Source of the DNA: Acidobacteriota bacterium
Lineage (GTDB): Bacteria > Acidobacteriota > Vicinamibacteria > Vicinamibacterales > UBA8438
NCBI GenBank assembly: GCA_026706755.1
Contig: JAPOYG010000035.1
Location: 12,855-45,309 of the forward strand
DNA length: 32,455 nucleotides
Direction: 5' to 3'
Below are positions 8,367 to 32,455 of the stretch, in pieces. The notes under the pieces are model-generated. The model was given only the letters and a program-made list of their open reading frames with translations. It did not search any database and was not told the origin of the DNA. Made by a program: the position numbers and the translations under genes. Each line of letters begins with the position of its first letter. Position 1 is the first letter of the stretch.

Positions 8367-8633
8367 CCCGATAATGAGGCGCCCTGGGCGCCCCGGCACG
8401 CGTCGTCTCCGAGCCGCGGATTCCGAACGCCCCAGCATACGCGCCCCGGTGCCGGCTGTCCATCGGGGACCGGACCCTGCGGCATAATGGAACGCTCCGG
8501 GAAGTTCCCACGTCCGACTCGATCCTGCGGCACGTCGATGGACCAGATCGCGGCGGGCGTGCTCGGGGCGGACAGCGTGCTGCCGTCCCTCGAGCTGGGG
8601 CCTCGCGCTGGGACCGCGAAGCCGGCGAAGCGC
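8367..8633. promoter_or_regulatory. Divergent intergenic region
   Basis: These 267 bases separate the minus-strand DUF1592 cluster from the plus-strand CRTAC1 gene, so they should hold both promoters. A CATAAT (8483-8488) resembles a -10 box for the plus gene, but no good -35 is present. Immediately downstream is an inverted repeat GGAAC-N10-GTTCC (8489-8508), a possible operator. Both are weak calls. Confidence 0.3.
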
Positions 8634-11364: not shown

Positions 11365-11475
11365 CCCGGCCTCGAGGAGAGGCACTGGACGGAGTACGGC
11401 ATCATGAGGCGCGGGCGACTTGCGGGCAGGACCGTGAGCCGCGCGATGAACCCGGATTGGAAGGGAGCGAATGCC

Positions 11476-13422: not shown

Positions 13423-15735
13423 ATGCCGAGACTGACGAGCGCGGGACATGCTATCGGAACCGGCGCCGGCCGGGCGTCGCCAGGAGCACGGCGCTCGGCG
13501 GGCGTCGCAAGCCTGGCCCGCCAATCGTCGCCTGAAGGCTCCACTCGGCGCCCGGCCAAGCCTGCAGGAGTCCGCGCCGTTCTACGGAGCGGACTCCTGG
13601 CCGCCGTCGCGGTAGCCCTCGGTATCGCCGCGCCGGCCGAGGGCCAGCCCGGGGAGGGCGGCGCCTTCCTCGATGCGCAGGCCGCCAGCGGACGGACCGC
13701 CTACGGGCGCTCCTGCGCCTCCTGCCACGGCGCGGCGCTGCGGGGCGCCGCGCACGGGCCGGAGCTGACGGGGCGCGGCTTCCTGAGCAACTGGGGATCG
13801 CAGAACGCGGCGGCGCTGTACGAGTACGTGCGGGCCGAGATGCCGCCGGGCCTCGGCGGATCGCTCTCGAACAGCGCCTATCTGAACATCGTCGCCTACC
13901 TGCTGCAGCAGAACGGGCACGCGGCGGGACCGCAAGCCCTCACTGCGGATGCCACGGCCATCGTCGGCGAGCCCGGCGCCGCCCCGGCCGCCGGTGCGCC
14001 CGTCGCGGCCGATGCCTCCGGCGCGGCGGCCGATGCGTCCGACGCGGCGGCGGCCGACGAGCCCCGCGACGTGGACGCGGTGCCGCCCCTCCGGGCCTTC
14101 GTCAACCGCGAGGTCTCCCACTTCACGCCGGTCACCGACGAGCTACTCCGGAATCCACCCCCGGAGGACTGGCTGACCTGGCGGCGGACGCGCGATAACC
14201 AGGGCTACACCCCGCTGGACCAGATCGGGCCGGGCAACGTGGCCGGCCTGCGGCTGGCCTGGGCCCTGGCGCTGCCCGAGGGCACGAACCAGACCGCGCC
14301 GCTCGTGCACGACGGCGTGATGTTCCTGGCCAGCCCCGGCAACATCGTCCAGGCCCTCGACGCAGCCTCCGGCGAGCTGATCTGGGAATTCCGGCACCAG
14401 TACCCCGAGGACGCGGAGAGCAGGCGTGCGACCCGCAGCATCGCTCTCTACCAGGACAAGGTCTACCTGGCCACCTACGACGCGGCAATCGTCGCCCTCG
14501 ACGCGCGGACCGGCGAGCCCGTCTGGCAGACGACCCGGGCCGACTACCGGAAGGGCTTCGCGCAGACCGCCGGCCCGGTCATCGCGAACGGCGTCGTCGT
14601 CAGCGGCATCAACGGCTGCGAGCGCTTCGAGGACGAAGGCTGCTTCATCACCGGCCACGACCCGGACACCGGCGAGGAGCTGTGGCGCACGTCGACCATC
14701 GCCCAGCCCGGCGACGTCAACAACGGCACGTGGGGCGACATCCCGCCGCACCTCCGCGGCGGCGGCGACAGCTGGATTCCCGGCGCCTACGACCCGGACC
14801 TCGACCTCTTCTTCGTCGGAACGGCGCAGGCGAAGCCGTGGGTGGCCGCGAGCCGCGGCATGTCGACCTACAACGACGCCCTCTACACCAACTCGACGCT
14901 CGCCCTGAATCCGCGCACGGGGCAGATGGCGTGGTACTTCCAGCACGTGCCGGGCGAGACGCTGGACATGGACATCGTCTTCGAGCGCGTGCTGGTCGAC
15001 GTCGACGACGAGCGGTGGCTGTTCACGGCCGGCAAGGACGCCATCCTCTGGAAGCTCGACCGGCGCACCGGGGCGTTCGTCGACCTGGCGGAGATGCTGC
15101 ACCAGGACATCTTCGACTCGATCGACATGGAGACCGGCCGCGTGAGCTACCGGCAGGACATCCGCGACGCCGGCATCGACGACGCGGTGGATGCCTGCCC
15201 GAGCCTGTACGGGGGCCACAACTGGCAGGCGTCGGGGTACAGCCCCGAGGCGAAGGTCATCATCTACCCGTTGCACCAGGCGTGCATGACGCTGACCGCC
15301 CGTGAGGTCGCGCTCGTGGAGGGCGGCGGCGGGCTCGGCGTCTCGGCCATCGAGCTCCACGAGATGCCGGGCACGAACGGCATGCTCGGGCGGCTTGCGG
15401 CCTACGACGTCCGCACCATGGAGGAAGTCTGGAGCCGCGAGCAGCGCGCCATCTTCCTGACCTCGGTGCTGACGACGGCCTCCGGCCTGGCCTTCGTCGG
15501 GGACGTCGACCGCTACTTCCGCGCCCTCGACGTCCATACGGGCGAGGTGCACTGGGAGACGCGCCTCGGCCAGTCCGGCCACGGGTTCCCGATCTCGTAC
15601 GCCGCCGGCGGCAGGCAGTACATCGCGGTCCCGACCGGCGTCGGCATCTTCCGCGGCCTGAGCGGGGTGCTCAGCCCGGACATCTACCAGCCTCCATCCG
15701 GGAACGGGCTGTATGTCTTCGCCCTCCCGGAGTAG
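13423..15735 (+). CDS. Cytochrome c / PQQ-dehydrogenase-like fusion, copy 1, 770 aa
   Basis: A GGGAG ribosome site precedes the ATG with the same context as the paralogue at 16646, which fixes the start. A long basic N-terminus leads into a hydrophobic signal (about residues 50-72). Heme c domain: C98-AS-C101-H102 with Met ligand M140 (AEMPPG). Quinoprotein propeller from ~225 to the end, with Ca-ligand Glu in INGCE, Lys in [15 protein letters not shown], but Gln for the usual Asn (GTAQAKPW) and E512 (PGETLDMD) in place of the catalytic Asp of the PHDxWD motif. There is no vicinal Cys pair. The cytochrome is N-terminal, whereas in the studied quinohaemoprotein alcohol dehydrogenases it is C-terminal. 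It probably oxidises an alcohol or similar substrate and passes electrons to its own heme; the substrate is unknown. Confidence 0.93.
13565..13599. repeat. REP-like palindrome, copy c, inside a coding region
   Basis: Perfect 11-base arms caggagtccgc (13565-13575) and gcggactcctg (13589-13599) surround the loop gccgttctacgga, which shares gttctacgg with copies b and d. It encodes residues ~48-59 of the cytochrome c/PQQ protein at the start of its signal sequence. The paralogue at 16646 lacks it and has a shorter N-terminus. Confidence 0.72.
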
Positions 15736-16645: not shown

Positions 16646-18862
16646 ATGCGGAGACAGAGCAGCGGGGTCGACGCCACCGGGTTCGGCAGCGATCGGGCAT
16701 CGTGGGCGACGGAGCGTTTGTCGGCCGCTGCGGCGGCTGCCTTCGCGACGGCGGCCCTCGCGGCAACCATCGGGATCTCCGCACCGGTCCAGGCCCAACC
16801 GGCGGCGTCGGGCGGCGCGTTCCTCGAGGCCCAGGCCACGAGCGGGCGGACGGCGTACGGCCGCTCCTGCGCCTCGTGCCACGGGGCGACGCTGCGGGGC
16901 GCGGCGCACGGGCCGGAGCTGACCGGCCGCGGCTTCCTGAACAACTGGGGGTCGAGCACCGCGGCGGAGCTGCTCGACTACGTGCGGGTCGAGATGCCGC
17001 CCGGGCTCGGCGGATCGCTGCCCGAGGGCACCTACCTCAGCATCGTCGCCTACCTCCTGCAGGAGAACGGGCACCCCGCCGGGGCCACCGCCCTCACCGC
17101 CGACGCTGCGGCCATCGTCGGCGACCCCGGGGCCGTCCCGGTCGGCGAACCCGCCGGTGCCATCGCGGACGCGTCGGCCGCAGCCGATCCGCCGGCCGAT
17201 GCCGACGTTCTGGAGCTCCCCCGTTCGTTCGTCAACCGCGAGGTCTCCGGCTTCACGCCGGTCACCGACGAGCTGCTCCGCAATCCCCCCGCCGAGGACT
17301 GGCTGACCTGGCGGCGGACCCGCGACAACCAGGGCTACAGCCCCCTGGACCAGATCGGCCCCGACAACGTCGCCGGGCTGCGGCTGGCGTGGGCCCTGGC
17401 GATGCCGGAAGGCAACAACCAGGCGACGCCCATCGTGCATGACGGCGTGATGTTCCTGGCGAGCCCCGGGAACGTCGTTCAGGCCCTCGACGCCGCCACG
17501 GGCGAGGTGATCTGGGAGCACCGGCACCAGTACCCCGAGGACGCCGCGAGCTGGGGCGCAACCCGCAGCATCGCCCTGTATCGGGACAAGGTCTACCTGG
17601 CCACCTACGACGCCGCGATCCTCGCCCTTGACGCGCGCACCGGGGAGCCGGTGTGGAAGACAACCAAGGCCGACTACCGCAAGGGCTTCGCCCAGACGGC
17701 CGGGCCGGCCATCGCCAACGGCGTCGTTGTCAGCGGCATCAACGGCTGCGAGCGGTTCGAGGACGAGGGCTGCTTCATCACCGGCCACGACCCCGACACC
17801 GGCGAGGAGCTGTGGCGCACGTCGAGCATCGCGCAGCCGGGCGACGTCAACAGCGGCACCTGGGGCGACATCGCCCCACACCTGCGCGGCGGCGGCGACA
17901 GCTGGATCCCCGGGGCCTACGACCCGGGCCTGGACCTCTTCTACATCGGCACCGCGCAGGCGAAGCCGTGGGTCGCGGCGAGCCGGGGGATGTCGACCTA
18001 CAACGACGCCCTCTACACCAACTCGACGCTGGCGCTGAGCCCGACGACCGGCCAGGTCGCCTGGTACTTCCAGCACGTGCCGGGCGAGACGCTCGACATG
18101 GACATCGTCTTCGAGCGGGTGCTGGTCGACGTCGACGGCGAGCAGTGGCTGTTCACGGCCGGCAAGGACGCCATCCTCTGGAAGCTCGACCGGCGCACGG
18201 GAGCGTTCCTCGAGCTGGCGGAGATGCTACCCCAGGACGTCTTCGAGTCGATCGACCGCGAGACGGGGCGCCTGACCTACCGCCAGGACATCCGCGACGC
18301 CGGCATCGACGACCCGGTGGATGCCTGCCCCGGCCTGTTCGGCGGCCACAACTGGCAGGCGTCGGCCTACAGCCCGGAGGCCGGCGTGCTCGTGTTCCCG
18401 TTGCACCAGGTGTGCATGACGCTCACCGGCCGCGACGTCGAGCTCATCGAGGGCGGCGGAGGCGTCGGCGCCTCGGTCGAGCTGCACGAGATGCCGGGCA
18501 CGAACGGGATGCTCGGGCGGCTCGCGGCATTCGACGTCCGCACGATGGAGGAGGTCTGGAGCCGCGAGCAGCGCGCCATCTTCCTGACCTCGGTGCTGAC
18601 GACGGCCACCGGCCTGGCCTTCGTCGGCGACGTCGACCGCTACTTCCGCGCCCTCGACGTCCGCACCGGCGAGGTTCTCTGGGAGACGCGCCTCGGCCAC
18701 GCCGCCCAAGGATTCCCGATCACGTACGAGGCGGGCGGCCGGCAATACGTCGCGGTCCCGGCCGGGCTCGGCATCTTCCGCGGCCTGAGCGGGGTGCTCA
18801 GCCCGGAGATCTACCAGGCCCAGACCGGAAACGGCCTGTACGTCTTCGCGCTGCCGGAGTAG
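16646..18862 (+). CDS. Cytochrome c / PQQ-dehydrogenase-like fusion, copy 2, 738 aa
   Basis: This is a tandem paralogue of the protein at 13423, with the large majority of positions identical by eye through the heme and propeller domains. The start is preceded by AAGGGAG and shares the surrounding gggagacg-accgatg context with copy 1. Signal peptide to AQAQ (~residue 50), heme motif C75-AS-C78-H79 with an EMPPG Met, then the propeller. The same altered active-site residues are present: GTAQAKPW and E481 in PGETLDMD. The linker between heme and propeller differs most between copies (Ala/Pro-rich, shorter here). It ends 27 bases from the convergent VWA gene. The two copies may have divergent substrates or expression; nothing in the propeller indicates a pseudogene. 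Confidence 0.94.
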
Positions 18863-18889: not shown

Positions 18890-19798
18890 CTACGGATCGA
18901 TGCGCCGGTTGCCGTGCAGCCGCACCTGGAGACCGGGACGCAGCACGCTCACCGAGATGCGGGTGCCCGGCTCGTAGGGAGCCTCGTAGAGCACGCGGTA
19001 CCGTTTCGAGACGGCGCGGTGGTGGGCGGTCATGTCGGCGGCGAGCTGCCGCAGGATCTGGCCGTACGCCGTGGCGGTGGCGATCGCGACGTAGCGCCCT
19101 CCCGTGTTGTGGACCAGGTTGAGCGCGAGGCCGGTCGAGACCAGCGAGGCCGTGGTCCGCCGGGCACGGGAGGTCCAGAGGACCGCGTGGACCATGACGC
19201 CGGCGGCCCGCAGGTTGGCGACGAAGCCGTTGAATCGGTTCTCGTTCATGAACGCGCTGGTCTCGTTCGCGTCCGTGAGAATCGCGACGAACACCGGCCA
19301 CGCCTCGTCGCCGTCGAAGCGCCGGTCCCACGTCTCGCGGATGCCGTCGAGGAAGCGGACACTTCCGGAATCGCTGTGCATCTCCAGCGCCGATGCAAGG
19401 AGCGCCGCCCGGTCGGTAGTGAAGTCGACGCGCCATCCGATGTGCCCACCGATCGTCGAGAGGCTGACGGGGTGCTCCGGCGCCAGCGTCTCGAGGAAGC
19501 CGGCCACGCCGTCGCGGAGCGGGCCCATCGCCTGCCTCCGGCCGATGATCACGCCGTTGTCCACGAGCAGCGCCACCCGCATCGGCGCCGTGCCGAGTTG
19601 CGCCGCGACGACCTCCAGGACCCGTCCGTCCTCGGTGACCCGGAACTCTTCCGGGCGGAGGTCGGTCACCGGCACGCCACTCCCGTCGATCACCTCCGCG
19701 TAGATCACGTCGTGATCCTGGGCCCAGGCGGTGGCGGCCAGGCAACTTCCCGCCAGAACGGCCGCCCCCATCACCAGCGGGCGCATGCTTCCCTTCAT
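18890..19798 (-). CDS. Exported VWA protein of the acidobacterial type, 302 aa
   Basis: The start at 19798 follows GGAGGGGA and begins a signal peptide ending ATAWAQ (residue ~27). The next segment (VIDGSGVPVTDLRPEEFRVT then EDGRVLEVV) is the hallmark N-terminal strand pair of the VWFA-related Acidobacterial domain (TIGR03436). The VWA core follows (RVALLVDNGVI, AILTDANETSAF, GVMVHAVLW). The metal-ion-dependent adhesion motif DxSxS is degenerate: the strand reads LLVDNGVIIG, without the serines. The C-terminus (KRYRVLYEAPYEPGTRISVSVLRPGLQVRL) is the usual closing beta region. Such proteins are abundant in Acidobacteria, with unknown function, possibly protein-protein adhesion. It lies downstream of a CRTAC1 gene on the same strand, 191 bases away. 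Confidence 0.9.
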   Translation of the reverse strand: MKGSMRPLVMGAAVLAGSCLAATAWAQDHDVIYAEVIDGSGVPVTDLRPEEFRVTEDGRVLEVVAAQLGTAPMRVALLVDNGVIIGRRQAMGPLRDGVAGFLETLAPEHPVSLSTIGGHIGWRVDFTTDRAALLASALEMHSDSGSVRFLDGIRETWDRRFDGDEAWPVFVAILTDANETSAFMNENRFNGFVANLRAAGVMVHAVLWTSRARRTTASLVSTGLALNLVHNTGGRYVAIATATAYGQILRQLAADMTAHHRAVSKRYRVLYEAPYEPGTRISVSVLRPGLQVRLHGNRRIDP

Positions 19799-19961
19799 GG
19801 CGTCAGTTCCCCTCCGCGGCGACTCGTTGCGTCCGACCCGCCCCTGGATCGGCTCCGGCGCGTCAGGCGCCGTCGCCGGCCGGCCCCGCCCGCCGTTCCG
19901 CATCGTAGCTCACCGGCACCCGCGCGCCCCCGCAGGCGCGGTTCGGTAGCCCGCCGGGCGC

Positions 19962-20002
19962 GGGAGTTCTCCAGGGCACGTTCTACGGCCTACGGGGCAG
20001 AC
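19962..20002. repeat. Degenerate REP-like element, copy d
   Basis: The segment keeps the left arm start (gggagt), an internal gggcacg, cgttctacggc and the end gcagac of copy b, but its arms no longer pair well. It overlaps the stop codon of the CRTAC1 gene (19990-19992), so the element seems to have supplied or altered that gene's C-terminal codons. Confidence 0.4.
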
Positions 20003-22002
20003 GGCTGGCGGCCGCTGCCCTCGACCAGCGTGGTGTAGCGACCGAGCGGCACGTCCGTCCACACCTCGACCGCGCCGCCCGGCCACGTCACGCGGACGAG
20101 CGCCGGCGGGGCGGCATCGGTCCCCAGGCCCACGAGCACGCGCGGGTCGTTCGCGGAGGCGTAGCTCCCGTCCGCTCGCGCCCGGCGCCACAGCGTCGGA
20201 GAGCCGTCTCGCACGACTTCCACCCGCGCGCCCGGCATGTCTCGCACCCCGCTCCGGCCGCCTCCCCCTCCGCCGCCGGCGCTCGGCCCGCCGGGCGGGT
20301 CCCCGACCAGGCGCAGCCCGAGCCAGGGGCGCTCGTTCCCCACCTCGTTGACCAGCAGGCGGACGGGGCCCTCGGCGTTGGCCACCACGACGTCGGTGTC
20401 GCCGTCGTTGTCGACGTCGCCGAACGCGGCGCCGCGGCTCACCTCGGAGAGCGCGAGGGCCGGGCCGGCCTGCGACGTGACGTCCTCGAAGCGGCCGTCG
20501 CCGAGGTTGCGCAGCAACTGGTTGGGCTGCTGCAGCGGGAAGGGGTTCTCGGGGCCGAGCGCGTCGAGGTTCTGCGTCACGAGACCGTTGACGGCCAGCA
20601 GGTCCAGCCAACCGTCGTTGTCGTAGTCGAACCAGCCGGCGCCGAAGCCGGTGTAGGGCAGGCTGACGACGCGGATCCCCGCCCGCGCGCTCTGCTCCTC
20701 GAAGCTTGCCGATCCGTCGTTCACGTAGAACGTGCTCCCCTGGGTCGTGAGATCGGTCATGAAGAGGTCTTCGTCGCCGTCGTTGTCGAAGTCGCCGGCG
20801 TCGACCCCCATGTCGGCCTTGAGGGCCCCCGACGCGCCGAGCGCGGTGCCCGACATCAGCCCCACGTCCTCGAAGCGCTCGCCGCCGCGGTTCAGCCAGA
20901 GCTGGTTCTCCTGCTGGTCGTTGGCGACGAACACGTCGATCCAGCCGTCGCCGTCGAAGTCGGCCGTCGCCACGCCGAGCGCCGGCCCGAACGCTCCGGC
21001 CAGGCCCCGGTCGACGGTGACGTCGGCGAACGTGCCGTCTCCCCGGTTGCGGTAGAGCCGGTCGGGCGCGGCGCGGTAGCGCTCCGGCGGGCAGTAGTCG
21101 GGCAGCCCCGACTCGCTGGCGCACGTGACGCGCCGCTCCGGGTCGTAGACCAGGTAGTTGCCGACGAAGAGGTCGAGCCGGCCGTCCCGGTCGACGTCGA
21201 CGAACGAGGCCGGCACGCTCCAGGCCGGGTCGTCGGTCCCGCTCGCGCGCGACACGTCCGTGAACGTCCCGTCGCAGTCGTTGCGGTAGAGCTGGTTGGG
21301 TCCGTAGTGGGTCAGGTAGAGGTCGACGCAGCCGTCGTTGTCGTAGTCCCCCGCCGCCACCCCCATGCCGTAGGCACGGGCGTCGATGCCGCTCTCGTCG
21401 GTGACGTCCGTGAAGCGGAGCGTGCGCGACCCGTCCGGTGCCACCTCGAGGTCGTTGCGGTAGAGGCGGCCGCGGAGGTCCCCGGCTTCGGCCGGCGGCG
21501 GCGTCCCGGTGCCCTCCAGGTAGCCGCTCTGCACCAGGTAGACGTCGAGGTCGCCGTCGTTGTCGTAGTCCACGAGCCCGGCCCCGGGGCCCATGATCTC
21601 CGGCTGGTGGAATTCGCCAGCGTGCCCGGTGACGTGCACGAAGTCGAGCCCCGCTTCCGCCGCGCGGTCGACGAACCACGGCGAGCCCGCAGCGGAGGCG
21701 GGTGCGCCCCCCGGAGGTCGGTCGGGTGGCGGCGCGTCCGCGGGGGAGTCGCCGCAACCGGCCAGCCCCGTCGCCAATGCCGCCGCAGCGCACAGCCGGC
21801 GCAGCCGGGCGCGGTACAGACGCCGGTCCGCCGCGGCGAGAGGAGCGTCGCCGGCCGCTCGCGGCGTGGTCGTCGCGAGCCGGCCGGCCTCGAACGGAAC
21901 GCGCCCCGACGTGCTGCCGGGGGACGGACTACGGGGCGCCAGGGAGCTCCACCTCCGCCGGGGTCCGGAACTGCAGGCGGGCGACGCGGCTGGTGCGCGC
22001 AC
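19990..22002 (-). CDS. CRTAC1-family lipoprotein, start uncertain, up to 670 aa
   Basis: Seven DxDxDG loops (DYDNDGDLD, DYDNDGCVD, DVDRDGRLD, DFDGDGWID, DFDNDGDED, DYDNDGWLD, DVDNDGDTD), a C-x9-C pair (CASESGLPDYC) and a C-terminal ASPIC/UnbV domain (RPWLGLRLVG, DGSYASANDPRVLVGLG) identify the family. A glycine-rich insert (GGGGGGR) lies in the ASPIC domain. The lipobox LAGC (in ALATGLAGCGDS) should follow a short signal, but the only in-frame ATG/GTG before it is a GTG at 22002 that overlaps the upstream gene's end by 74 bases and has no ribosome site. A CTG at 21819 would give a normal lipoprotein signal. The start should be treated as unresolved; an upstream sequencing indel is also possible. 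It is probably co-transcribed with the diheme propeller gene. Confidence 0.9.
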   Translation of the reverse strand: MRAPAASPACSSGPRRRWSSLAPRSPSPGSTSGRVPFEAGRLATTTPRAAGDAPLAAADRRLYRARLRRLCAAAALATGLAGCGDSPADAPPPDRPPGGAPASAAGSPWFVDRAAEAGLDFVHVTGHAGEFHQPEIMGPGAGLVDYDNDGDLDVYLVQSGYLEGTGTPPPAEAGDLRGRLYRNDLEVAPDGSRTLRFTDVTDESGIDARAYGMGVAAGDYDNDGCVDLYLTHYGPNQLYRNDCDGTFTDVSRASGTDDPAWSVPASFVDVDRDGRLDLFVGNYLVYDPERRVTCASESGLPDYCPPERYRAAPDRLYRNRGDGTFADVTVDRGLAGAFGPALGVATADFDGDGWIDVFVANDQQENQLWLNRGGERFEDVGLMSGTALGASGALKADMGVDAGDFDNDGDEDLFMTDLTTQGSTFYVNDGSASFEEQSARAGIRVVSLPYTGFGAGWFDYDNDGWLDLLAVNGLVTQNLDALGPENPFPLQQPNQLLRNLGDGRFEDVTSQAGPALALSEVSRGAAFGDVDNDGDTDVVVANAEGPVRLLVNEVGNERPWLGLRLVGDPPGGPSAGGGGGGGRSGVRDMPGARVEVVRDGSPTLWRRARADGSYASANDPRVLVGLGTDAAPPALVRVTWPGGAVEVWTDVPLGRYTTLVEGSGRQPSAP

Positions 22003-24196
22003 ACGGGACCCAGATGTCGCCCCGGATGTCGTCGACCGCGATGTTGCGTGTCTCGCACCCGATGCTCGGCAACTGGTAGATGGTCCACTCGCCCGTCGCC
22101 GGATCGAGCTTCACCACCCGGTCGTCGCTCAGCAGGTTCGCCCAGACGTTGTGGTCCTTGTCGACGACGACGAAGTACGGGTTCCCGTTGATCGGCAGCG
22201 CGTGGTAGGTCACCTCGTGCGTCCGGATGTCGATGCGCGCGAGGTTCATGCCCAGGTAGTTCGGCACCCAGACCGTGTGGCCGGCCCGGTCCGCACCCAG
22301 CCGCCGCGGGGCCTGCGCGCCGGGGACGGAGTTGATGCCGCCCCAGAGGAGCGCGCCGACCGACTCGTAGAAGGCGCGATCGTCCGGCGTCATCAGGCTC
22401 TCGCGGTCGGCCATCCACGGGGGCCGCATGATGAACTCCGTGCTCTCGCCGGTGCGCGGGTCGCCCTTCACCACCCGCTCCGCGTTGAACTGCGTCCACC
22501 AGCCGTTGCCGTCGGCGTCCCCGGTCATGCCGTAGGTGAAGCCGTCGGCCGGGGTGACGTTCTGCAGGTGCTTCCAGTCCTCGGTGTCGGGATCGAACCA
22601 GATGGAGCCGTAGCGCGTGCCGCCCCAGATCTTCCCGTGTCCGTCGGCGTCGACGGTCACGCTCACCCCGCTTCCCATTCCGCGCGGCGGCGTGAAGAGG
22701 TCGATCGAGTCGGTCGCCGCGTCGATCCGGCCGAGGCTGCCGTTGGTGTCGAACCACAGCGTGCCGTCCTGGTCCCGCCCGATGCCGTGGGACGACCGCG
22801 TGCGCATGCGGGGGCCGGCGCCGCGCGTCAGCTTGAAGTCCGTCACCTGCCCCGTGCGCGTCTCGAGCTTGGTGACGGTGCGGTGCAGGTTGCCGGCCGA
22901 CTCGGTCATCCACGCGTTCCCGTCGTTGTCGACGATGACGTCGTGGAGGCCGCCCATGGCGCCGTGCATCCCGGTGCCCGGCCCCTCGGACCAGTCGCTG
23001 CCGTCGTGCCAGGCGAGCTCGCCGAGCCGGTCCACGGGGACGTCGTACTCGGTGACGACCACGCGCGCCGCATCGCCGGTGGGACGCGGCTGGAGCGCGA
23101 AGTCGAGCTCGGAGTCCGGGCCGCGCACCCGCGCCAGGTACGCCGCCAGCTCTTCCTTGTGGTAGCCGATCGTCCGGTCGCGGTAGATGCCGCCGCCCGC
23201 CTCGTAGTCGCCCGGAGGCGGCCGCCGGTCGCCCAGCCAGCCGGTGTACGTCGAGTGCTCCATCAGGTCGAGGATGGCCAGCCAGCCCGCCTCGTCGAAC
23301 GTGTTGTGGAGCGCCACGCTCGGCGAGTGGCACTCCGTGCAGTTGACGCGGAAGATCTCCTTCAGCCGCCGGTCCTCGAACGTGTCCTCGGGCAGCGAGT
23401 CGAGCCATTCCGCGCCCGAGAGCTGCGGCGTGAAGTCGTCGATGGCGCGCAGGTGGAAGGTGTGCGCGGCGGGGCGCTCCGCGGCCAGCGCCGCCTCGGC
23501 GCGTGCGGTCTCGAAGCCGACGCCCTGCGCCCACAGGCGGTAGTCGCCGTCGTCGAGGGCCGGGAAGACGAATCTGCCCCGCTCGTCGGTGAAGACGGTC
23601 GTCGTGAAGGTCCGGTCCGTGGCGCGGGCGGATACCGCGATGCCCGCCAAAGGCCCGCCGTCGGTCTCCCCGCTCAGCACCTCGCCGCTCAGCCCGGCGC
23701 GCGGCTCCGGAAGGCCCGCCGCCCCGCCGGCCGGCCCGGCCGCAGCCGACAGGGTCGTACCGGCCGCGCCGGCCGGCGCGGTCGCCGCATCGTCGGACAC
23801 CGTCCGCAGGTAGGCGACGATGCGATCCACCTGCGCCGGGCGCAGCGCGTGGCGGAAGCCGGGCATGCGCGGCGAGCCGTCGGCGATCAGGCGCCGCGCC
23901 GCCGCCTCGCGCTCCCCGGCCACCGTGCGCCGGTCGAGCTCCGGACCGGGCGTCTCGCCGAGCGGCTGCCCCACCGGGTCGTGACAGATCGCGCAGCGCT
24001 GGGTGAAGAGGCGCCTTCCCGCAAGCTCCTCGTCCGACAGCGCGGGCGGCGCGGCGAGCCGCCGCATGTCGTAGACCGTCCGCTCCACGGTCGGAGCCGT
24101 GTGCGTTTCCTGCTGTGCGGCGAGGGCCGCGGGTGCCACTGCCGCCACACACGCCACCGCGAGCCACGCAACGATCCTGCCTGCGCGCCTGCCCAT
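21929..24196 (-). CDS. Diheme cytochrome c / Vgb-like propeller protein, 755 aa
   Basis: AGGAGGGG precedes the ATG. Signal peptide to ALAAQ (~28). A class I cytochrome c domain follows, with C68-AI-C71-H72 and Met111 in PRMPGF. A carboxypeptidase-regulatory-like beta sandwich spans ~165-245 (LSGEVLSGETDGGPLAGIAV, GRFVFPALDDGDYRLWAQG). A second heme motif is C286-TE-C289-H290. A streptogramin-lyase-like propeller occupies ~340-755 with repeated DxxGxxW blades (VDNDGNAWMTE, DQDGTLWFDT, DADGHGKIWGG, DKDHNVWANL). It shares domain order with the 716-aa protein at 2312 but has an extra cytochrome. It is probably a periplasmic electron-transfer or substrate-binding protein. The CRTAC1 gene downstream overlaps or abuts it, suggesting one operon. 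Confidence 0.92.
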   Translation of the reverse strand: MGRRAGRIVAWLAVACVAAVAPAALAAQQETHTAPTVERTVYDMRRLAAPPALSDEELAGRRLFTQRCAICHDPVGQPLGETPGPELDRRTVAGEREAAARRLIADGSPRMPGFRHALRPAQVDRIVAYLRTVSDDAATAPAGAAGTTLSAAAGPAGGAAGLPEPRAGLSGEVLSGETDGGPLAGIAVSARATDRTFTTTVFTDERGRFVFPALDDGDYRLWAQGVGFETARAEAALAAERPAAHTFHLRAIDDFTPQLSGAEWLDSLPEDTFEDRRLKEIFRVNCTECHSPSVALHNTFDEAGWLAILDLMEHSTYTGWLGDRRPPPGDYEAGGGIYRDRTIGYHKEELAAYLARVRGPDSELDFALQPRPTGDAARVVVTEYDVPVDRLGELAWHDGSDWSEGPGTGMHGAMGGLHDVIVDNDGNAWMTESAGNLHRTVTKLETRTGQVTDFKLTRGAGPRMRTRSSHGIGRDQDGTLWFDTNGSLGRIDAATDSIDLFTPPRGMGSGVSVTVDADGHGKIWGGTRYGSIWFDPDTEDWKHLQNVTPADGFTYGMTGDADGNGWWTQFNAERVVKGDPRTGESTEFIMRPPWMADRESLMTPDDRAFYESVGALLWGGINSVPGAQAPRRLGADRAGHTVWVPNYLGMNLARIDIRTHEVTYHALPINGNPYFVVVDKDHNVWANLLSDDRVVKLDPATGEWTIYQLPSIGCETRNIAVDDIRGDIWVPCARTSRVARLQFRTPAEVELPGAP

Positions 24197-24546
24197 CGTC
24201 CCCTCCTGGCCAATGTGGCCGTCGGCCGCTCCGAGCGCCCGGCAGCGGCCGTGAACCGATCATGGGGCAAGCCCGTGGGAAGCGCAACCGGGACGTCCGT
24301 CCGGTGCCGGCGATCGACAGCGTAGGGCCAAAACTATACTTGGAGGAGGGTCAGGCGCTCGCGGTGGGGCCGGGACGATTCGTGTGGCAGCCCTCGGCGG
24401 GGCCGCCCGTCCAGGAACCTGGCAACCGCGCGCGGAGAGCGCGACTTCGATCGCCAGCCCGCGCGCGGAGGGACGGCCTGGGCCGACCGAGAGCCATCGT
24501 CCGGAGACGAGCGTCCCGGCAACGAATTCACGACACGAGGAAGACG
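24197..24546. promoter_or_regulatory. Divergent intergenic region with candidate plus-strand promoter
   Basis: This 350-base stretch lies between divergent genes. TCGACA (24314-24319) and TATACT (24335-24340) with a 15-base spacer form the best plus-strand promoter candidate; the spacer is short. A strong GGAGGAGGG follows at 24342-24350 with no good start codon at the right distance. The frame of the downstream gene stays open through the region, but its translation there is arginine-rich and without a signal peptide, so I treat it as leader. Confidence 0.4.
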
Positions 24547-27042
24547 ATGCGGGGGCAGAACACTACGACAGCGACACGGATGCTCAGCGCCGCGATCCTG
24601 TTGGCGACGGGCGCAGCACTCGCGGCCTGCGGAGGGGGCGCGCCGGCCGACCCGATTCCCGACACGACCGTGGAGACCCTGCCGACAGCGCGAGAGCTGC
24701 TGGAAGCCGGCGCCGTGCTGGAGGTCCCCTCCTTTTCCCTGACCGATCAGACCGGCGAGCCGTTCGGTTCGGCGCACCTCGAGGACCGCGTCTGGATCGC
24801 GCACCTCACGTCGACCGCATGCACCGACATCTGCCCGGACGTCACGGCTGGGCTGCGGGAGCTGGAGGGCGAGCTCAGCGGCGCGCCGGGCTGGGACGAC
24901 ATCCGCTTCGTGAGCTTCAGCGCCGACCCGGAGGCCGACACGCCGGCCGTGCTCGCGGACCACGCGCGCGAGGTCGGCGCGGACGGCGAGCACTGGAAGT
25001 TCCTCACCGGCCGGCGCAACCAAGTCCGGCAGCTCAGCCGCCACGGGCTGCGACTCCCGGTCGGCGGTTCCGCGGACGACGCCGAGCCGGGCTTCCCGGC
25101 CGGCGACGTCCTGCTCGTCGACCGCCTGCAGCGCATTCGCGCCGTGTTCGACGGAACGAGCGCGGAGGGGCGCGGGGATCTGGCTCGCGAGCTCCGGGAG
25201 CTCGCCGGCGCCCCACCGCGCCGCGTCGTCGCGCACCCCGAGGAGGTGCTCGACCCGCCGTGGCTGGACGGTCGCGCCCAAGCGCAGCTCGCGACGGCCG
25301 ACGATCTCGACGTCGTCCACGACTTCCGCTTCACCGACCGCCTGCACGAGAGCGGCATCACCTTCGTCAACCGCGTCACGGACGACTCGGGCAAGGCCTA
25401 CAAGCCGGTCCACTACGACCACGGGAACGGCATCGCGGTGGCCGACGTCGACGGCGACGGGCGGCTCGACATCTACTTCACCAACCAGGTGGGCCCGAAC
25501 GAGCTGTGGCGCAACCTCGGCGCCGGCGAGTTCGACAACGTCACGCGCGCGGCGGGCGTCGGCCTGCCGGACGCGATCAGCGTCACCGCCTCGTTCGCCG
25601 ACACCGACAACGACGGGGACGCGGACCTGTTCGTGACGACGGTCCGAGGCGGCAACCACCTCTTCGTCAACGACGGGGGGGGCCGCTTCACGGACGCCAC
25701 CGAGGCGGCGGGGTTGGGTCACGTCGCGCACTCGTCGGCGGGGGTGTTCTTCGACTACAACCGGGACGGCCTGCTCGACCTCTTCCTCTGCAACGTCGGC
25801 GTCTACTCGTCGGACGACCTCGGTCCCGGGGGCTACTACATCGGGTTCGCGGACGCCTTCGAGGGACACCTGCAGCCCGAGCGGCGGAACGAGCGGAGCA
25901 TCCTCTACGAGAACCGGGGCGACAACCGCTTCGCCGACGTCACCGAGGAGCGCGGGCTGGCCGACGAGAGCTGGACCGGCGACGCGAGCCCCCTCGACGC
26001 CAACGGCGACGGCTGGCCGGACCTGTACGTGCTCAACATGCAGGGCCACGACGAGTACTTCGAGAACGTGGGCGGCGAGCGCTTCGAGCGGCGCAGCCGG
26101 GAGCTCTTCCCGCGCACGCCGTGGGGGTCGATGAGCATCAAGGTGTTCGACTTCGACAACGACGCCGACATGGACATCATCCTCACCGACATGCACTCGG
26201 ACATGAGCGAGGACGTCGGGCCTCCGCGCGAGAAGCTGAAGGCGCGCATGCAGTGGCCGGAGTCGACGCTCCGTTCCGGGGGCAACAGCATCTACGGCAA
26301 CGCCTTCTTCCGAAACGACGGCGGCACCTTCACGGAGGCCTCGGACGCGCTCGGCACCGAGAACTACTGGCCGTGGGGCCTCAGCGTCGGCGACCTGAAC
26401 GCCGACGGCTTCGACGACGTCTTCGTCGCCTCGAGCATGAACTTCCCGTTCCGCTACGGCGTCAACACCGTGCTGCTGAACGACGCGGGCCGTGGATTCG
26501 TCGACAGCGAGTTCATCCTGGGCGTCGAGCCGCGCCGGGATCGCCGGACGGCGCGCCCCTGGTTCACGCTCGACTGCGCGGGAGCGGACGCCGGGAACAC
26601 CTACTGCGAGGAGTTCGGCCTGCTCGACGAGGCGGTGGTCTGGGCCTCCGTCGGGTCGCGCTCGGCCGCCATCTTCGACCTCGACGGCGACGGCGACCTC
26701 GACATCGTCACCAACGAGTTCCACGACGGCCCGCTCGTGCTCGTGAGCGATCTCGCAGAACGAGGGCCGGTCCGTGCCGTGACCGTCAACCTGACCGGGT
26801 CGGAGTCGAACCGCGACGGCCTCGGCGCCGCGGTCACGGTGCGCGCCGGCGGCCGCTCGTACGTGAAGGTCCACGACGGGCAGTCGGGCTACCTCTCGCA
26901 GAGCCTGATTCCGCTCTACTTCGGACTGGGCGACGCCGAGACGGTCGACGAGATCACCGTAGTCTGGCCATCCGGGGCCGAGCAGACCGTGCCCGGCCCC
27001 ATCGCAGCCGGAAGCACCGTGGACGTGCGCGAGGGTGAATAG
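24547..27042 (+). CDS. SCO1/SenC-CRTAC1 fusion lipoprotein, 831 aa
   Basis: GAGGAAG precedes the ATG, and the lipobox is LAAC at Cys28. Residues ~58-220 form a SCO1/SenC thioredoxin-like domain: PSFSLTDQTGEPFGSAHLED, the copper/redox motif C92-TDI-C96, and FVSFSADPEADTP. The distal His ligand of Sco proteins, normally just before the LVD strand, is missing here: the region reads GFPAGDVLLVD, with P184 near the expected spot. From ~280 a CRTAC1 propeller follows with seven loops (DVDGDGRLD, DTDNDGDAD, DYNRDGLLD, DANGDGWPD, DFDNDADMD, DLNADGFDD, DLDGDGDLD) and a C-terminal ASPIC/UnbV domain (GRSYVKVHDGQSGYLSQS, ITVVWPSGAEQ). It is more divergent than the other three CRTAC1 proteins. It is probably a membrane-anchored redox or copper protein with a binding propeller. 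Confidence 0.93.
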   Translation: MRGQNTTTATRMLSAAILLATGAALAACGGGAPADPIPDTTVETLPTARELLEAGAVLEVPSFSLTDQTGEPFGSAHLEDRVWIAHLTSTACTDICPDVTAGLRELEGELSGAPGWDDIRFVSFSADPEADTPAVLADHAREVGADGEHWKFLTGRRNQVRQLSRHGLRLPVGGSADDAEPGFPAGDVLLVDRLQRIRAVFDGTSAEGRGDLARELRELAGAPPRRVVAHPEEVLDPPWLDGRAQAQLATADDLDVVHDFRFTDRLHESGITFVNRVTDDSGKAYKPVHYDHGNGIAVADVDGDGRLDIYFTNQVGPNELWRNLGAGEFDNVTRAAGVGLPDAISVTASFADTDNDGDADLFVTTVRGGNHLFVNDGGGRFTDATEAAGLGHVAHSSAGVFFDYNRDGLLDLFLCNVGVYSSDDLGPGGYYIGFADAFEGHLQPERRNERSILYENRGDNRFADVTEERGLADESWTGDASPLDANGDGWPDLYVLNMQGHDEYFENVGGERFERRSRELFPRTPWGSMSIKVFDFDNDADMDIILTDMHSDMSEDVGPPREKLKARMQWPESTLRSGGNSIYGNAFFRNDGGTFTEASDALGTENYWPWGLSVGDLNADGFDDVFVASSMNFPFRYGVNTVLLNDAGRGFVDSEFILGVEPRRDRRTARPWFTLDCAGADAGNTYCEEFGLLDEAVVWASVGSRSAAIFDLDGDGDLDIVTNEFHDGPLVLVSDLAERGPVRAVTVNLTGSESNRDGLGAAVTVRAGGRSYVKVHDGQSGYLSQSLIPLYFGLGDAETVDEITVVWPSGAEQTVPGPIAAGSTVDVREGE

Positions 27043-28270: not shown

Positions 28271-29641
28271 TCACCGGGCGGCGAGGGTGGCTTCGACGGT
28301 GCCGGCCAGCTCACTGAGCCTCGCGTGCTCGGGGTGCCGCTCGCGCGCCTCTGCCAGCCACGCGCGAGCGTCGTCGTAGCGCTCCAGTCGGACGAGGGCC
28401 ATGGCGCCCTCCAGCCAGGAGGCAGCGTCGGTGGGGTCGAGGGTCACGACCTGCCGCCAGTGAACCACCGACGCGGCGAGGTCGCCCAGATTGCGGAGCA
28501 TCTCGGCCTGTCCGACGTGGGCGTCGACCTGCGCCGGGTCGTGCTCGGCGGCGGCCGCGAAGTGCGTGAGGGCGTCGCGGAAGCGCCGCTGCTGCGCGAG
28601 GAAGATGGCGAGGCTGAGGTGGGTCGGGGCGTGGTCGGGAGTCCGGCGCAGGGCCTCCTGGAACTCGGCCACCGCCGCGTTGCCGTCCCCAATCCAGTAG
28701 AGAGCAAGGCCGAGGCCGTGGCGGAGCTCGGCGCTGTCCGGGTCGAGCTCGAGCCCGCGGCGGTACATCTCCACCGCCCCCTCGTAGTCCTCCGCCTCCA
28801 TGGCGAGCCGGCCGCGGTTGTTGTAGGCGTCGGCGCTCTCGAGCAGCCAGAAATAGTCCTGCATCAGCGGGTCGTGGAGGCGCGGACGACCGTCGCCCCG
28901 CTGCCCCAGATGCCGCTCCGCCCGCTCCTGGTCGCCGAGGCCGCGGTAGGCCAGGGCCAGGCGGTAGTGGACGCGCGTCGCCTGCGGGTCGAGGGCCAGC
29001 ACCCGCTCGAGAAGCTCGACGGCGGCCGCCGGATCGTCGAGGGCCAGTCGGGCGCGGCCCAGGCCCTCGAGGACCGCGGCCGATTCGGGTGCAATCTCCC
29101 TCCCGTGCGTGAAGACGCGCTCCGCGTCCGCGGCCCGGTCGCGATCGAGGTAGGCCTCGCCGAGCCGCACGATGGTCGGCAGATCCGTCGGCCGCAGGTC
29201 GAGCGCGCGCTCGAACGGCTCCACCGCGCGCGCGGGGTCGCCCGTGAGCAGAAACAGCTGCCCCAGGTAGTACGGCCACCGCGGGTCGCGGGGCATCAGC
29301 GCCTCGGCGTTCCGCAGGCTCGCCTCGGCGCCGGTGTGGAAGCGGGTCGCCATCAGGATGAGCCCGATGTCGCCGTGCGCCTGCGCCAGCTCGCGGGCGG
29401 GGGCGTTCGGGCGCCCGGACACCGCGGCGAGCGTCGCGAAGCGGGTGCGTACCTGCGCCTGGACGGATTCCGGCAGCAGCGACAGGTCGGGCATCTCCAC
29501 CGGCCGGACCTGCCAGGCGGTCGGCTCGGCGTCAGCCGGTGCGGTGGAGGCGGGGTCGGCCGTGTCGCCGGCAGAGCCGCAGGCGGCCGCCGACAGGGCC
29601 AAGGTCAGTGCGCAGGCTGCCAGCGCGACGCGCTGCGACAT
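28271..29641 (-). CDS. TPR lipoprotein, 456 aa
   Basis: The signal peptide ends in the lipobox SAAAC (Cys21). The mature protein is a chain of about ten tetratricopeptide repeats (for example YYLGQLFLLTGDPARAVEPF, TIVRLGEAYLDRDRAADAER, YNNRGRLAMEAEDYEGAVEM). No enzymatic domain is seen. It is a clear paralogue of the TPR lipoprotein at 31578, sharing IVRLGEAYL / LVRLGEVYL and RVHYRLALAYRGLGDQERA / GIHYPLAMAYRRLGDSERA. It is divergent from the CRTAC1 gene at 29764, across 122 bases. No ribosome site is visible, and a TATGCT lies only nine bases before the ATG, so a near-leaderless transcript is possible. Role: probable periplasmic protein-protein scaffold, perhaps for CRTAC1 partners. Confidence 0.92.
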   Translation of the reverse strand: MSQRVALAACALTLALSAAACGSAGDTADPASTAPADAEPTAWQVRPVEMPDLSLLPESVQAQVRTRFATLAAVSGRPNAPARELAQAHGDIGLILMATRFHTGAEASLRNAEALMPRDPRWPYYLGQLFLLTGDPARAVEPFERALDLRPTDLPTIVRLGEAYLDRDRAADAERVFTHGREIAPESAAVLEGLGRARLALDDPAAAVELLERVLALDPQATRVHYRLALAYRGLGDQERAERHLGQRGDGRPRLHDPLMQDYFWLLESADAYNNRGRLAMEAEDYEGAVEMYRRGLELDPDSAELRHGLGLALYWIGDGNAAVAEFQEALRRTPDHAPTHLSLAIFLAQQRRFRDALTHFAAAAEHDPAQVDAHVGQAEMLRNLGDLAASVVHWRQVVTLDPTDAASWLEGAMALVRLERYDDARAWLAEARERHPEHARLSELAGTVEATLAAR

Positions 29642-29687
29642 GGTCGCGCGAGCATAGCACGCGGGCGGAGCCTCGCCGGTTCCAACC

Positions 29688-29718
29688 TATAATCGAACGC
29701 CCAAAAACCGAACGTTCG
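29688..29718 (+). promoter_or_regulatory. -10 box TATAAT and downstream palindrome
   Basis: A perfect TATAAT (29688-29693) stands 70 bases before the CRTAC1 start, without a recognisable -35. Fifteen bases downstream is the perfect palindrome CGAACGTTCG (29709-29718), whose half CGAACG also occurs directly after the -10 box (29694-29699). Its position near the likely transcription start makes it a candidate repressor site. Confidence 0.45.
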
Positions 29719-29763
29719 CCCCGGGCAAGACGAGTCGTTACGGAAGCAACGCGACCCCGCACC

Positions 29764-31581
29764 ATGCGCACTAGCGATCTTCGCCGCACGACCGCCATCG
29801 CGACGGTCTGTCTCGCGGCCGGGCTGGCGGGCTGCGGCTCCGAGGCGCCGCCGCCGTCGGCCGAGGCCGCCGACGCCCTCGCCCCCGTCCCGGCCGAGAG
29901 CCCGAACGACTGGTTCGTCGACCGGGCCGCCGCGGCCGGGATCGACTTCGTGCACTTCAACGGCATGTCCGGGGAGTACTACTTCCCCGAGATCATGCCG
30001 GCCGGCGTGGGCCTCGTCGACTACGACGCCGACGGCGACCTCGACGCCTACTTCGTCCAGGGCCAGATGATGGGCGAGGGCAAGACGTTCGCCGACGCCC
30101 TGTTCGAGCCGGTCGGCCCGCTGCCGCTCCGCGGCCGGCTGTACCGCAACGACCTGGAGGTCGCGGCGGACGGCACGCGGACGCTGCGCTTCACGGACGT
30201 CACCGAGGCGAGCGGCATCGACGCCCGCGGCCACGGCATGGGGATCGCGACCGGCGACGTCGACAACGACGGCTGGGTGGACCTCTACCTCACGTTCCTC
30301 GGCCCCAACCGCCTCTACCGCAACAACGGCGACGGAACGTTCACCGACGTCTCGGCGGCGAGCGGCGCGGACGACGCGGGCTGGGGGGTCTCGGCGTCGT
30401 TCGTCGACATCGACGGCGACGGCTGGCTCGACCTCTACGTCGGCAACTACGTGCACTACGACTTCAGCGGCGAGCGCGTCTGCACGGTCCTGTCCGACCG
30501 CCGCAGCCACTGCGGGCCCGAGCACTTCGAGCCGGAGACCGATCGCCTGTTCCGCAACCGCGGGGACGGCACCTTCGAGGACGTCACCGCCACCGCGTTC
30601 GTCGTCACCGAGCCGTTCGGGCCGGCCCTCGGCGTGTCGACGGCGGACTTCGACAGCGACGGCTGGATGGACATCTACGTCGCCAACGACGGCCGCGACA
30701 ACCTGCTCTGGATGAACCGCGGCGACGGGACGTTCGGCAACCTGGGACTGATGAGCGGGGCCGCGCTCAGCGAGGACGGCAAGCCGGAAGCGAGCATGGG
30801 AGTGGACGCGGGCGACTTCGACAACGACGGCGACGAGGACCTGTTCATGACGCACCTGCCCACCGAGGGGCACAACCTGTACGTCAACGACGGGTCCGCG
30901 ACGTTCGAGGACGGGAGCGCCGCCTCGCGGGTGCACGGCCTGAGCCTCGGCTACACCGGCTGGGGCACGGCCTGGATCGACGTCGACAACGACGGCTGGC
31001 TCGACCTGCTGCTGGCGCACGGCGCGCTCGACGCCAAGCCGGGCCGGCCCGACCATCCGATGCCCTTCGAAGAACGGAACCTGCTGCTGCGCAACACCGG
31101 CGACGGGCGGTTCGAGGACGCTACCGATGCAGCCGGAGCGGCGCTCGCGCTGGTGGAGGTAAGCCGGGGCGCCGCGTTCGGCGATATCGACAACGACGGC
31201 GACCCCGATGCCCTGCTCGGCAACCTCAACGGGCGCGTCCGTCTCCTCCTCAACACCGTCGGCAACCGCGCCCACTGGCTCGGCCTGCGGCTCGTCAGCG
31301 AGGCCCCGGTCGCAGGCGGGGGTGCCGCGGCCACCGGCCGCGACATGCTCGGCGCCCGCGTCGAGATCCTCCGGGACGGCGAGACCACCCTGCGGCGCCG
31401 GGTGCGGGCCGACGGCAGCTACGCCTCGGCCAGCGACCCACGCGTTCTCGCAGGGCTCGGCGATTCGACCGCCGCGCCGACGGTGCGCGTCCACTGGCCC
31501 GACGGTCGCACGGAGGAGTGGGCCGACGTCCCGATCGACCGCTGGACCACTCTGGTCCGGGGCGAGGGGCGAACGCGATGA
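29764..31581 (+). CDS. CRTAC1-family lipoprotein, 605 aa
   Basis: A short clean lipoprotein signal ends in LAGC (Cys24). Seven DxDxDG loops follow (DYDADGDLD, DVDNDGWVD, DIDGDGWLD, DFDSDGWMD, DFDNDGDED, DVDNDGWLD, DIDNDGDPD) with a C-x9-C pair (CTVLSDRRSHC) and a C-terminal ASPIC/UnbV domain (AHWLGLRLVS, DGSYASASDPRVLAGLG, VRVHWPDGRTEEW). It is closest to the proteins at 8634 and 19990. Its TGA overlaps the ATG of the next gene (ATGA), so the CRTAC1 and TPR lipoproteins are translationally coupled, the strongest evidence here that the two families work as a pair. No strong ribosome site precedes this ATG. Confidence 0.95.
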   Translation: MRTSDLRRTTAIATVCLAAGLAGCGSEAPPPSAEAADALAPVPAESPNDWFVDRAAAAGIDFVHFNGMSGEYYFPEIMPAGVGLVDYDADGDLDAYFVQGQMMGEGKTFADALFEPVGPLPLRGRLYRNDLEVAADGTRTLRFTDVTEASGIDARGHGMGIATGDVDNDGWVDLYLTFLGPNRLYRNNGDGTFTDVSAASGADDAGWGVSASFVDIDGDGWLDLYVGNYVHYDFSGERVCTVLSDRRSHCGPEHFEPETDRLFRNRGDGTFEDVTATAFVVTEPFGPALGVSTADFDSDGWMDIYVANDGRDNLLWMNRGDGTFGNLGLMSGAALSEDGKPEASMGVDAGDFDNDGDEDLFMTHLPTEGHNLYVNDGSATFEDGSAASRVHGLSLGYTGWGTAWIDVDNDGWLDLLLAHGALDAKPGRPDHPMPFEERNLLLRNTGDGRFEDATDAAGAALALVEVSRGAAFGDIDNDGDPDALLGNLNGRVRLLLNTVGNRAHWLGLRLVSEAPVAGGGAAATGRDMLGARVEILRDGETTLRRRVRADGSYASASDPRVLAGLGDSTAAPTVRVHWPDGRTEEWADVPIDRWTTLVRGEGRTR

Positions 31582-32455
31582 ACGGCCGTCGCCTGGCCGC
31601 CGCCGCACTGGCCGCGCTCCTCTCGGCGGGCTGTGCGGGATCCGCGGGCCCGACCGGCGGGGACGGCCCGGGGATGCTCGCTCCGCCCGAGGGCCTGGGC
31701 CTCGAAGAGGTCATCCGACCCGACTTCTCCGCGATGGGAGAGTCGGCGGCGCGGCAGATGCGCGAGCGCTACGACACGCTCGCCCGTACCGTGGGCGACG
31801 GAAGCGCGACGGCCGCCGAGCTCGCCGCCGCCTACGGCGGGATGGGCGACCTGCTGCTGGCGGCCCGCGAGCTCGAGACGGCCGAGGCCTACTACCGCAA
31901 CGCGCAGGCCCTCGCCCCGGGCGAATGGCGCTGGGCGCACCTGCTCGGCCACCTGTACCGCAATCAGGGCCCGCTCGACGAGGCGGTGACCTTCCTGGAG
32001 CATGCGGCCGAGATTACGCCCCGGGCCGTGGCCACGCTGGTCCGCCTGGGCGAGGTCTACCTCGCGCTCGGGCGTCCCGAGGCGGCCGCGCCGCGCTTCG
32101 AGCAGGCGCTGGCGGTCGATCGCGGCTCGGCCGCCGCGTGGTACGGCGCCGGGCGGGCCGCACTGGCCCGCAGGGACGACGCAGCCGCCGTGAACGCGCT
32201 GGAGGAGGCCCTCGCGCTGGCCCCGGAGGCGAACGGGATCCACTACCCGCTCGCGATGGCCTACCGGCGCCTGGGCGACTCGGAACGGGCGCGCGCCCAC
32301 ATGGCGCGGCAGGGAGAGATCGAGCCGCGGCCCGACGACCCCGTGCTGCAGGAGATCGAGCAGCGCTTCGAGAGCGCCCTGCTCCTCGACTTCCGGGGCG
32401 GCGAGGCCCTGGCCGCGGGCAACTGGGCCGCCGCAGCCGACTTCTTCGACCGGGC
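31578..32455 (+). CDS. TPR lipoprotein, 3' end outside the window
   Basis: The ATG overlaps the stop of the CRTAC1 gene. The lipobox is SAGC (Cys19). At least five tetratricopeptide repeats are visible (for example AAYGGMGDLLLAARELETAE, ATLVRLGEVYLALGRPEAAA, HYPLAMAYRRLGDSERARAH). It is paralogous to the protein at 28271 in the aligned section, including the insertion of a Pro/Asp-rich spacer (EPRPDDPVLQEIEQ here, GRPRLHDPLMQDYFW there). The frame is open to the window edge, with at least 292 residues. It is inferred to bind its CRTAC1 partner at the periplasmic face of a membrane. Confidence 0.9.
   Translation, partial: MNGRRLAAAALAALLSAGCAGSAGPTGGDGPGMLAPPEGLGLEEVIRPDFSAMGESAARQMRERYDTLARTVGDGSATAAELAAAYGGMGDLLLAARELETAEAYYRNAQALAPGEWRWAHLLGHLYRNQGPLDEAVTFLEHAAEITPRAVATLVRLGEVYLALGRPEAAAPRFEQALAVDRGSAAAWYGAGRAALARRDDAAAVNALEEALALAPEANGIHYPLAMAYRRLGDSERARAHMARQGEIEPRPDDPVLQEIEQRFESALLLDFRGGEALAAGNWAAAADFFDR

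Follow-up and report, generated by a model that had tools for sequence, protein, structure and literature searches.

A recurrent CRTAC1-TPR lipoprotein gene pair of Acidobacteriota, perhaps the outer capture module for an uptake system not yet described

In a 32,455-bp stretch of a 5.8-Mb acidobacterial draft genome (contig C540, positions 12855-45309; hereafter the window), the gene of a calcium-propeller lipoprotein of the CRTAC1 family overlaps that of a TPR-repeat lipoprotein. This pair recurs across several phyla, in both gene orders and occasionally as a single fused protein, and its two members co-diverge as a cassette. In relatives of the window it frequently lies next to a gene for a TonB-dependent transporter. 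A partnership between the two proteins is very likely, and a role in TonB-dependent uptake is plausible: as the pairs often adjoin importer genes in Acidobacteriota, they are perhaps the outer capture part of an uptake system. We found no account of the CRTAC1-TPR pair in the literature searched; a paper on Poribacteria merely lists both domain types.

The gene pair and its divergent paralogue

An earlier note made from the sequence alone had described the first protein as a lipoprotein combining a propeller with an ASPIC/UnbV domain. Our analysis agrees. The N-terminus carries a lipobox at residues 21-24, and a profile search against Pfam retrieved FG-GAP_3 repeats (E 2.2e-47) followed by UnbV_ASPIC at residues 529-593 (E 1.8e-15), the order of FG-GAP/VCBS and UnbV_ASPIC that characterizes the family; the model of a homologue matches murine CRTAC1 (see below). 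The ATGA overlap with the downstream TPR gene proposed in the same note is also present. All three N-termini, LAGC in CRTAC1, SAGC in TPR2 and AAAC in TPR1, show a lipobox cysteine after a hydrophobic stretch, as in bacterial lipoproteins. The window contains the first 292 residues of TPR2; on the contig the full ORF encodes 546 residues and ends at the equivalent of position 33218, with residues ~293-413 masked as N. TPR repeats cover nearly the whole length of TPR1. In NCBIfam, no named family matched CRTAC1 or the transporter considered below, and all TPR matches were below the cut-off.

Coordinates of the pair and adjoining features in the window
Feature	Position	Strand	Description	Basis
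TPR1	28271..29641	-	Short-form TPR-repeat lipoprotein of 456 aa, transcribed divergently from CRTAC1	ORF, lipobox, TPR Pfam matches
Intergenic conserved block	29645..29696	.	Near-invariant across three species of the genus	
CRTAC1	29764..31581	+	Lipoprotein, 605 aa, FG-GAP calcium beta-propeller and UnbV_ASPIC; ATG at 29764, TGA ending at 31581	Pfam, homologue model
ATGA overlap	31578..31581	+	TPR2 start codon (ATG 31578-31580) over CRTAC1 stop codon (TGA 31579-31581)	Sequence
TPR2	31578..32455	+	TPR-repeat lipoprotein, long-form subfamily; ORF cut by the window end	

Over 261 residues, TPR1 shares 42% identity with TPR2. Because this similarity spans the non-TPR spacer as well as the repeats, the two are true paralogues, which bears out the earlier description of a second TPR lipoprotein of the same family transcribed divergently from a shared gap. 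A tree sets them apart, with TPR1 in a clade where 8 of 10 members are short forms and TPR2 in one of long forms. These clades are distinct and supported, and a recent local duplication is therefore ruled out. Relatives of TPR1 that are 95% and 86% identical occur in the same arrangement in two genomes of the same genus (G001 and G002), the only relatives examined to show it; in a third genome, G003, the contig stops at CRTAC1. The divergent paralogue is thus a feature of the genus, and its inclusion in the module by the earlier note does not stand.

The two divergent genes share a gap of 122 bp, which diverges among the three species of the genus outside the conserved block. This block contains a TATAAT facing CRTAC1 (29688-29693) and a TATGCT-like sequence facing TPR1, and it likely holds divergent promoters. 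Promoter function is what we infer from this conservation, since a strict sigma-70 scan of the gap found no site.

Among the other genes of the window, a putative cyclase (PF04199; 27116-28111, minus strand) with a signal-like N-terminus adjoins TPR1; in G001, too, TPR1 is followed by a relative of it. On the plus strand, three propeller proteins of the PQQ-dependent dehydrogenase type lie close together (11404-13290, 13423-15735 and 16646-18862), two of them with a cytochrome c domain. One minus-strand protein (21929-24196) joins cytochrome c, CarboxypepD_reg and a virginiamycin B lyase-like propeller; a DUF1552 (HXXSHH) protein (4576-5934) and a long ankyrin-repeat protein (631-2199) are encoded on the same strand. 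A lipoprotein-like protein (24544-27042, plus strand), which is also found in G001 (L082:12304-14814), combines a SCO1/SenC domain with a CRTAC1 propeller and UnbV_ASPIC in one chain. Two more CRTAC1 genes on the window contig have no TPR partner (19990-22002, minus strand; 8487-10487, plus strand). Next after the first comes a VWA-like gene (18890-19903, minus strand) whose family recurs near the transporter/CRTAC1/TPR sets of L095 and L101; L085 also has a VWA gene, and L089 a relative.

Recurrence, coupling and co-divergence

We searched 40 genomes, the window's own and 39 relatives, for members of the TPR family. Of 94 TPR relatives, 71 lie on the same strand directly downstream of a CRTAC1 gene, 5 upstream and 4 on the opposite strand, while 14 stand alone, some of these at contig ends. 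A single genome can contain up to about a dozen CRTAC1-TPR pairs, often in tandem. In 17 further genomes of the phylum, nearly all from outside the family, 41 of 63 TPR matches have a same-strand CRTAC1 neighbour. To these we added a set of 80 loci chosen by CRTAC1 alone, 70 of which have room for a neighbour: a same-strand TPR gene was found at 45 of the 70 (27 downstream, 18 upstream). The background, counted in the same DNA beyond 3 kb from CRTAC1, is 0.034 TPR matches per kb. The CRTAC1-chosen loci come from Acidobacteriota, Planctomycetota (L195, L206, L213, L214), Verrucomicrobiota (L210, L223, L234) and others, among them MAGs labelled Gammaproteobacteria (L185, L187, L189); such labels may be wrong, but the multi-phylum pattern does not depend on any single one. 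Adjacency restricted to close relatives, the outcome against which the earlier note had set its proposal, is ruled out by the other acidobacterial families and the other phyla. In a distant acidobacterial family, the pair is flanked by a longer divergent CRTAC1 of ~770 residues, of which 200-plus at the N-terminus have no domain assignment (L254:2604-4916, L255:3322-5517, L264:8551-10857).

The short overlap recurs as well. In 54 of 83 CRTAC1>TPR pairs (22/30, 18/32 and 14/21 in three sets; frame statistics p 1e-7 to 4e-4), the sequence would allow the TPR frame to open with a 4-bp NTGA overlap, at putative start codons. With adjacency this wide and 4-bp overlaps this frequent, a functional pair is well supported. 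Natural fusions exist in both orders: CRTAC1-TPR in Latescibacterota (L208:10004-12766) and TPR-CRTAC1 in Pyrinomonadaceae (L228:5074-8547).

Within the family, CRTAC1 and TPR distances over 50 pairs correlate with a rho of 0.60. When TPR partners were swapped among paralogous pairs of the same genome, the correlation fell to a mean of 0.26, with a maximum of 0.46 in 2000 swaps. This shows that each CRTAC1-TPR cassette is passed on as a unit; linkage could be a sufficient cause of such co-divergence. The type of signal peptide agrees in 76 of 84 CRTAC1/TPR pairs, some of which have type I signal peptides instead of lipoboxes. On the tree, this match corresponds to about 3 independent concerted changes, which is not significant (sign test, p 0.25), and we dropped it as tree-independent evidence. 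It mostly reflects shared ancestry and is no more than suggestive of partnership.

These genomes have multiple copies of both families, as would be expected if two abundant envelope families were simply co-transcribed with neither physical nor functional partnership. Recurrence in several phyla, the two gene orders, the fusions and the cognate co-divergence all speak against such an arrangement, which we consider very improbable.

A dedicated partner could also act in assembly or export, as a chaperone or tether that holds, matures or displays CRTAC1 and has no part in ligand binding. The ATGA coupling and the co-divergence fit a dedicated partner of this kind, and the 14 CRTAC1 genes at or above 55% identity to which no TPR match is adjacent might share one. 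TPR superhelices, moreover, commonly bind other proteins. On the other hand, the existence of fused proteins in either order, and of anchors that usually match, suggests permanent rather than transient company. Slam, too, combines TPR repeats with a link to outer-membrane lipoproteins, and the TPR_Slam model matches the repeats of the proteins studied here. Slam is a fusion of TPR repeats to its own beta-barrel; Pfam found no barrel domain in TPR1, and the barrel encoded nearby is that of a TonB-dependent transporter. An assembly role of the TPR protein is unlikely in our judgement. A TPR arm may present or retain the propeller, as the earlier note put it.

Structural models of the pair

The pair was modelled on a homologous in-frame pair, L089, read through its stop codon, with an alignment of in-frame read-through pairs. 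The model shows two confident separate domains joined by a disordered linker, with an overall pTM of 0.64. For two independent domains of such sizes we estimate a pTM of ~0.5, so that there may be some preferred arrangement of CRTAC1 and TPR; at 0.64, the model falls short of defining an interface. The earlier proposal is thus partly supported: adjacency and overlaps favour a functional pair, and a direct stoichiometric complex within it is a conjecture.

A fold search with the L089 model returned murine CRTAC1 first, followed by OGT-type TPR superhelices. Murine CRTAC1 (9etn) is the best PDB match by both sequence and structure, and the homologue model superimposes on it with a TM-score of 0.72 normalised to the target. 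The homologous-pair model thus supports a propeller fold for CRTAC1; the seven blades given in the earlier note are putative. The bacterial family shares its domain order and fold with cartilage acidic protein 1 of animals and differs from it in being usually lipid-anchored and paired with a TPR protein. No description of the function of bacterial members was found in the literature searched.

Transporter neighbours and a possible role in uptake

The most informative neighbour of the pairs is a recurrent outer-membrane protein (OMP) of ~1000 residues whose N-terminal domain is CarboxypepD_reg. Its relatives match OMP_b-brl_4, Plug and TonB_dep_Rec in Pfam. A model of an OMP from the window's own genome (pLDDT 71.5, pTM 0.70) retrieved TonB-dependent transporters throughout the top 50 fold matches, FusA being the first; among the matches is 8bmx, the transporter of a Bacteroides complex of B12 transporter and lipoprotein. 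For most pairs of the family, and in several other Acidobacteriota, a lipoprotein gene lies beside such a transporter gene. In two genomes of the family (G013 and G019), 17 of 21 CRTAC1 genes have an OMP gene at a distance of 4.5 kb or less, with ~0.03 expected per gene. Runs of OMP>CRTAC1>TPR or OMP>CRTAC1>TPR>CRTAC1>TPR were found at seven loci (L087, L088, L090, L094, L095, L099, L101); OMP>CRTAC1>TPR is also present in a distant family (L271), and the reversed TPR>CRTAC1>OMP at L100, in a different family of the order. In the window's own genome, the three best-scoring OMPs adjoin CRTAC1-TPR pairs on C363, C144 and C387, and are convergent with the pair on C363 and C387. The window pair itself lacks a neighbouring transporter gene, and none was found on its contig.

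Lipoproteins with comparable parts serve as transporter lids in Bacteroidota. In Bacteroides, seven-bladed propeller lipoproteins are proven lids of TonB-dependent transporters, to which they hand over B12 or siderophores (PMC10404256, PMC13142918), and TPR-containing SusD/RagB lipoproteins are reported to be lids for glycans and peptides (PMC2954216, PMC11817032). The pair studied here brings together parts of both sorts. As in BtuB-BtuG and XusA-XusB, a propeller lipoprotein is here encoded with a TonB-dependent transporter, and XusA shares an N-terminal carboxypeptidase-like domain with the OMP (PMC10404256, PMC13142918). Unlike BtuG and XusB, CRTAC1 belongs to a different sequence family: its Pfam matches are FG-GAP and UnbV_ASPIC only, with no match to the BtuG/XusB family domain (DUF4374 in XusB). 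The phylum also differs, a TPR partner is added, and the window pair lacks a cis-encoded transporter. The resemblance to SusC-SusD and RagA-RagB lies in a helical TPR-containing lipoprotein that accompanies a CarboxypepD_reg TonB transporter, in many paralogous cassettes per genome. Here, however, the helical protein is a plain TPR superhelix, with the propeller as constant partner; Pfam found TPR or helical-repeat models only, and no SusD/RagB domain, in TPR1, the TPR2 fragment and the TPR protein of L100.

On this basis we propose as the most economical explanation, tentatively and at somewhat less than even confidence, that in the window's family the pair is a capture module for CarboxypepD_reg TonB transporters, made of cognate, translation-coupled envelope lipoproteins. 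CRTAC1 and TPR2 would be translated in a coupled manner from one mRNA and exposed at the cell surface in physical contact. The calcium propeller with its UnbV/ASPIC domain would be the ligand-facing part, and the TPR superhelix a scaffold or docking arm for it. Binding the transporter like a lid, the pair would do the job of BtuG, XusB or SusD in ligand import with unrelated parts, and paralogous cassettes may have different ligand specificities. The window pair would use a transporter encoded elsewhere.

In other phyla, the pair may work with different surface machines. No TonB transporter was seen among the neighbours examined outside Acidobacteriota, where multihaem cytochromes, CCP_MauG and pilin-like proteins were found instead, and these different surroundings are the main reason why our confidence stays short of even. 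Multihaem cytochrome or CCP_MauG genes near such pairs are located at L187:7836-9956, L186:1668-3617, L186:3651-5168 and L205:2559-4508.

The same neighbourhoods suit a general-purpose surface complex for adhesion, matrix or cell-cell contact, for which proximity to TonB genes would be a lineage-specific use or the hitchhiking of surface genes. Integrin-like adhesion proteins likewise contain FG-GAP propellers (PMC3123361), lipidated and secreted forms of the pair both exist, and the window pair has no adjoining transporter gene. Such a complex appears rather unlikely as the general explanation, given that transporter adjacency in the window's family is far above chance, same-strand runs included, and that a TPR>CRTAC1>OMP run occurs in another family of the order.

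Taken more broadly, the capture-module proposal describes a widespread two-protein surface receptor, a CRTAC1 propeller with a TPR scaffold, that caps CarboxypepD_reg TonB transporters in Acidobacteriota. We regard this wider claim as possible, though doubtful. It would place lipoprotein-capped uptake outside Bacteroidota, in protein families not known for this, when capped transporters have seemed exclusive to Bacteroidetes (PMC10404256).

The CRTAC1-TPR pair is recurrent across phyla and undescribed in the literature searched. Many CRTAC1 and TPR proteins of Acidobacteriota and Planctomycetota that had no assigned use can now be seen as members of a cognate, translation-coupled cassette, which makes of them a system open to testing. 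Should the cassette prove to cap TonB transporters, lid-type nutrient capture would reach beyond Bacteroidota. This would offer a route to predict uptake by soil and marine Acidobacteriota, and would give a bacterial role to the ASPIC/UnbV domain that these proteins have in common with animal CRTAC1.
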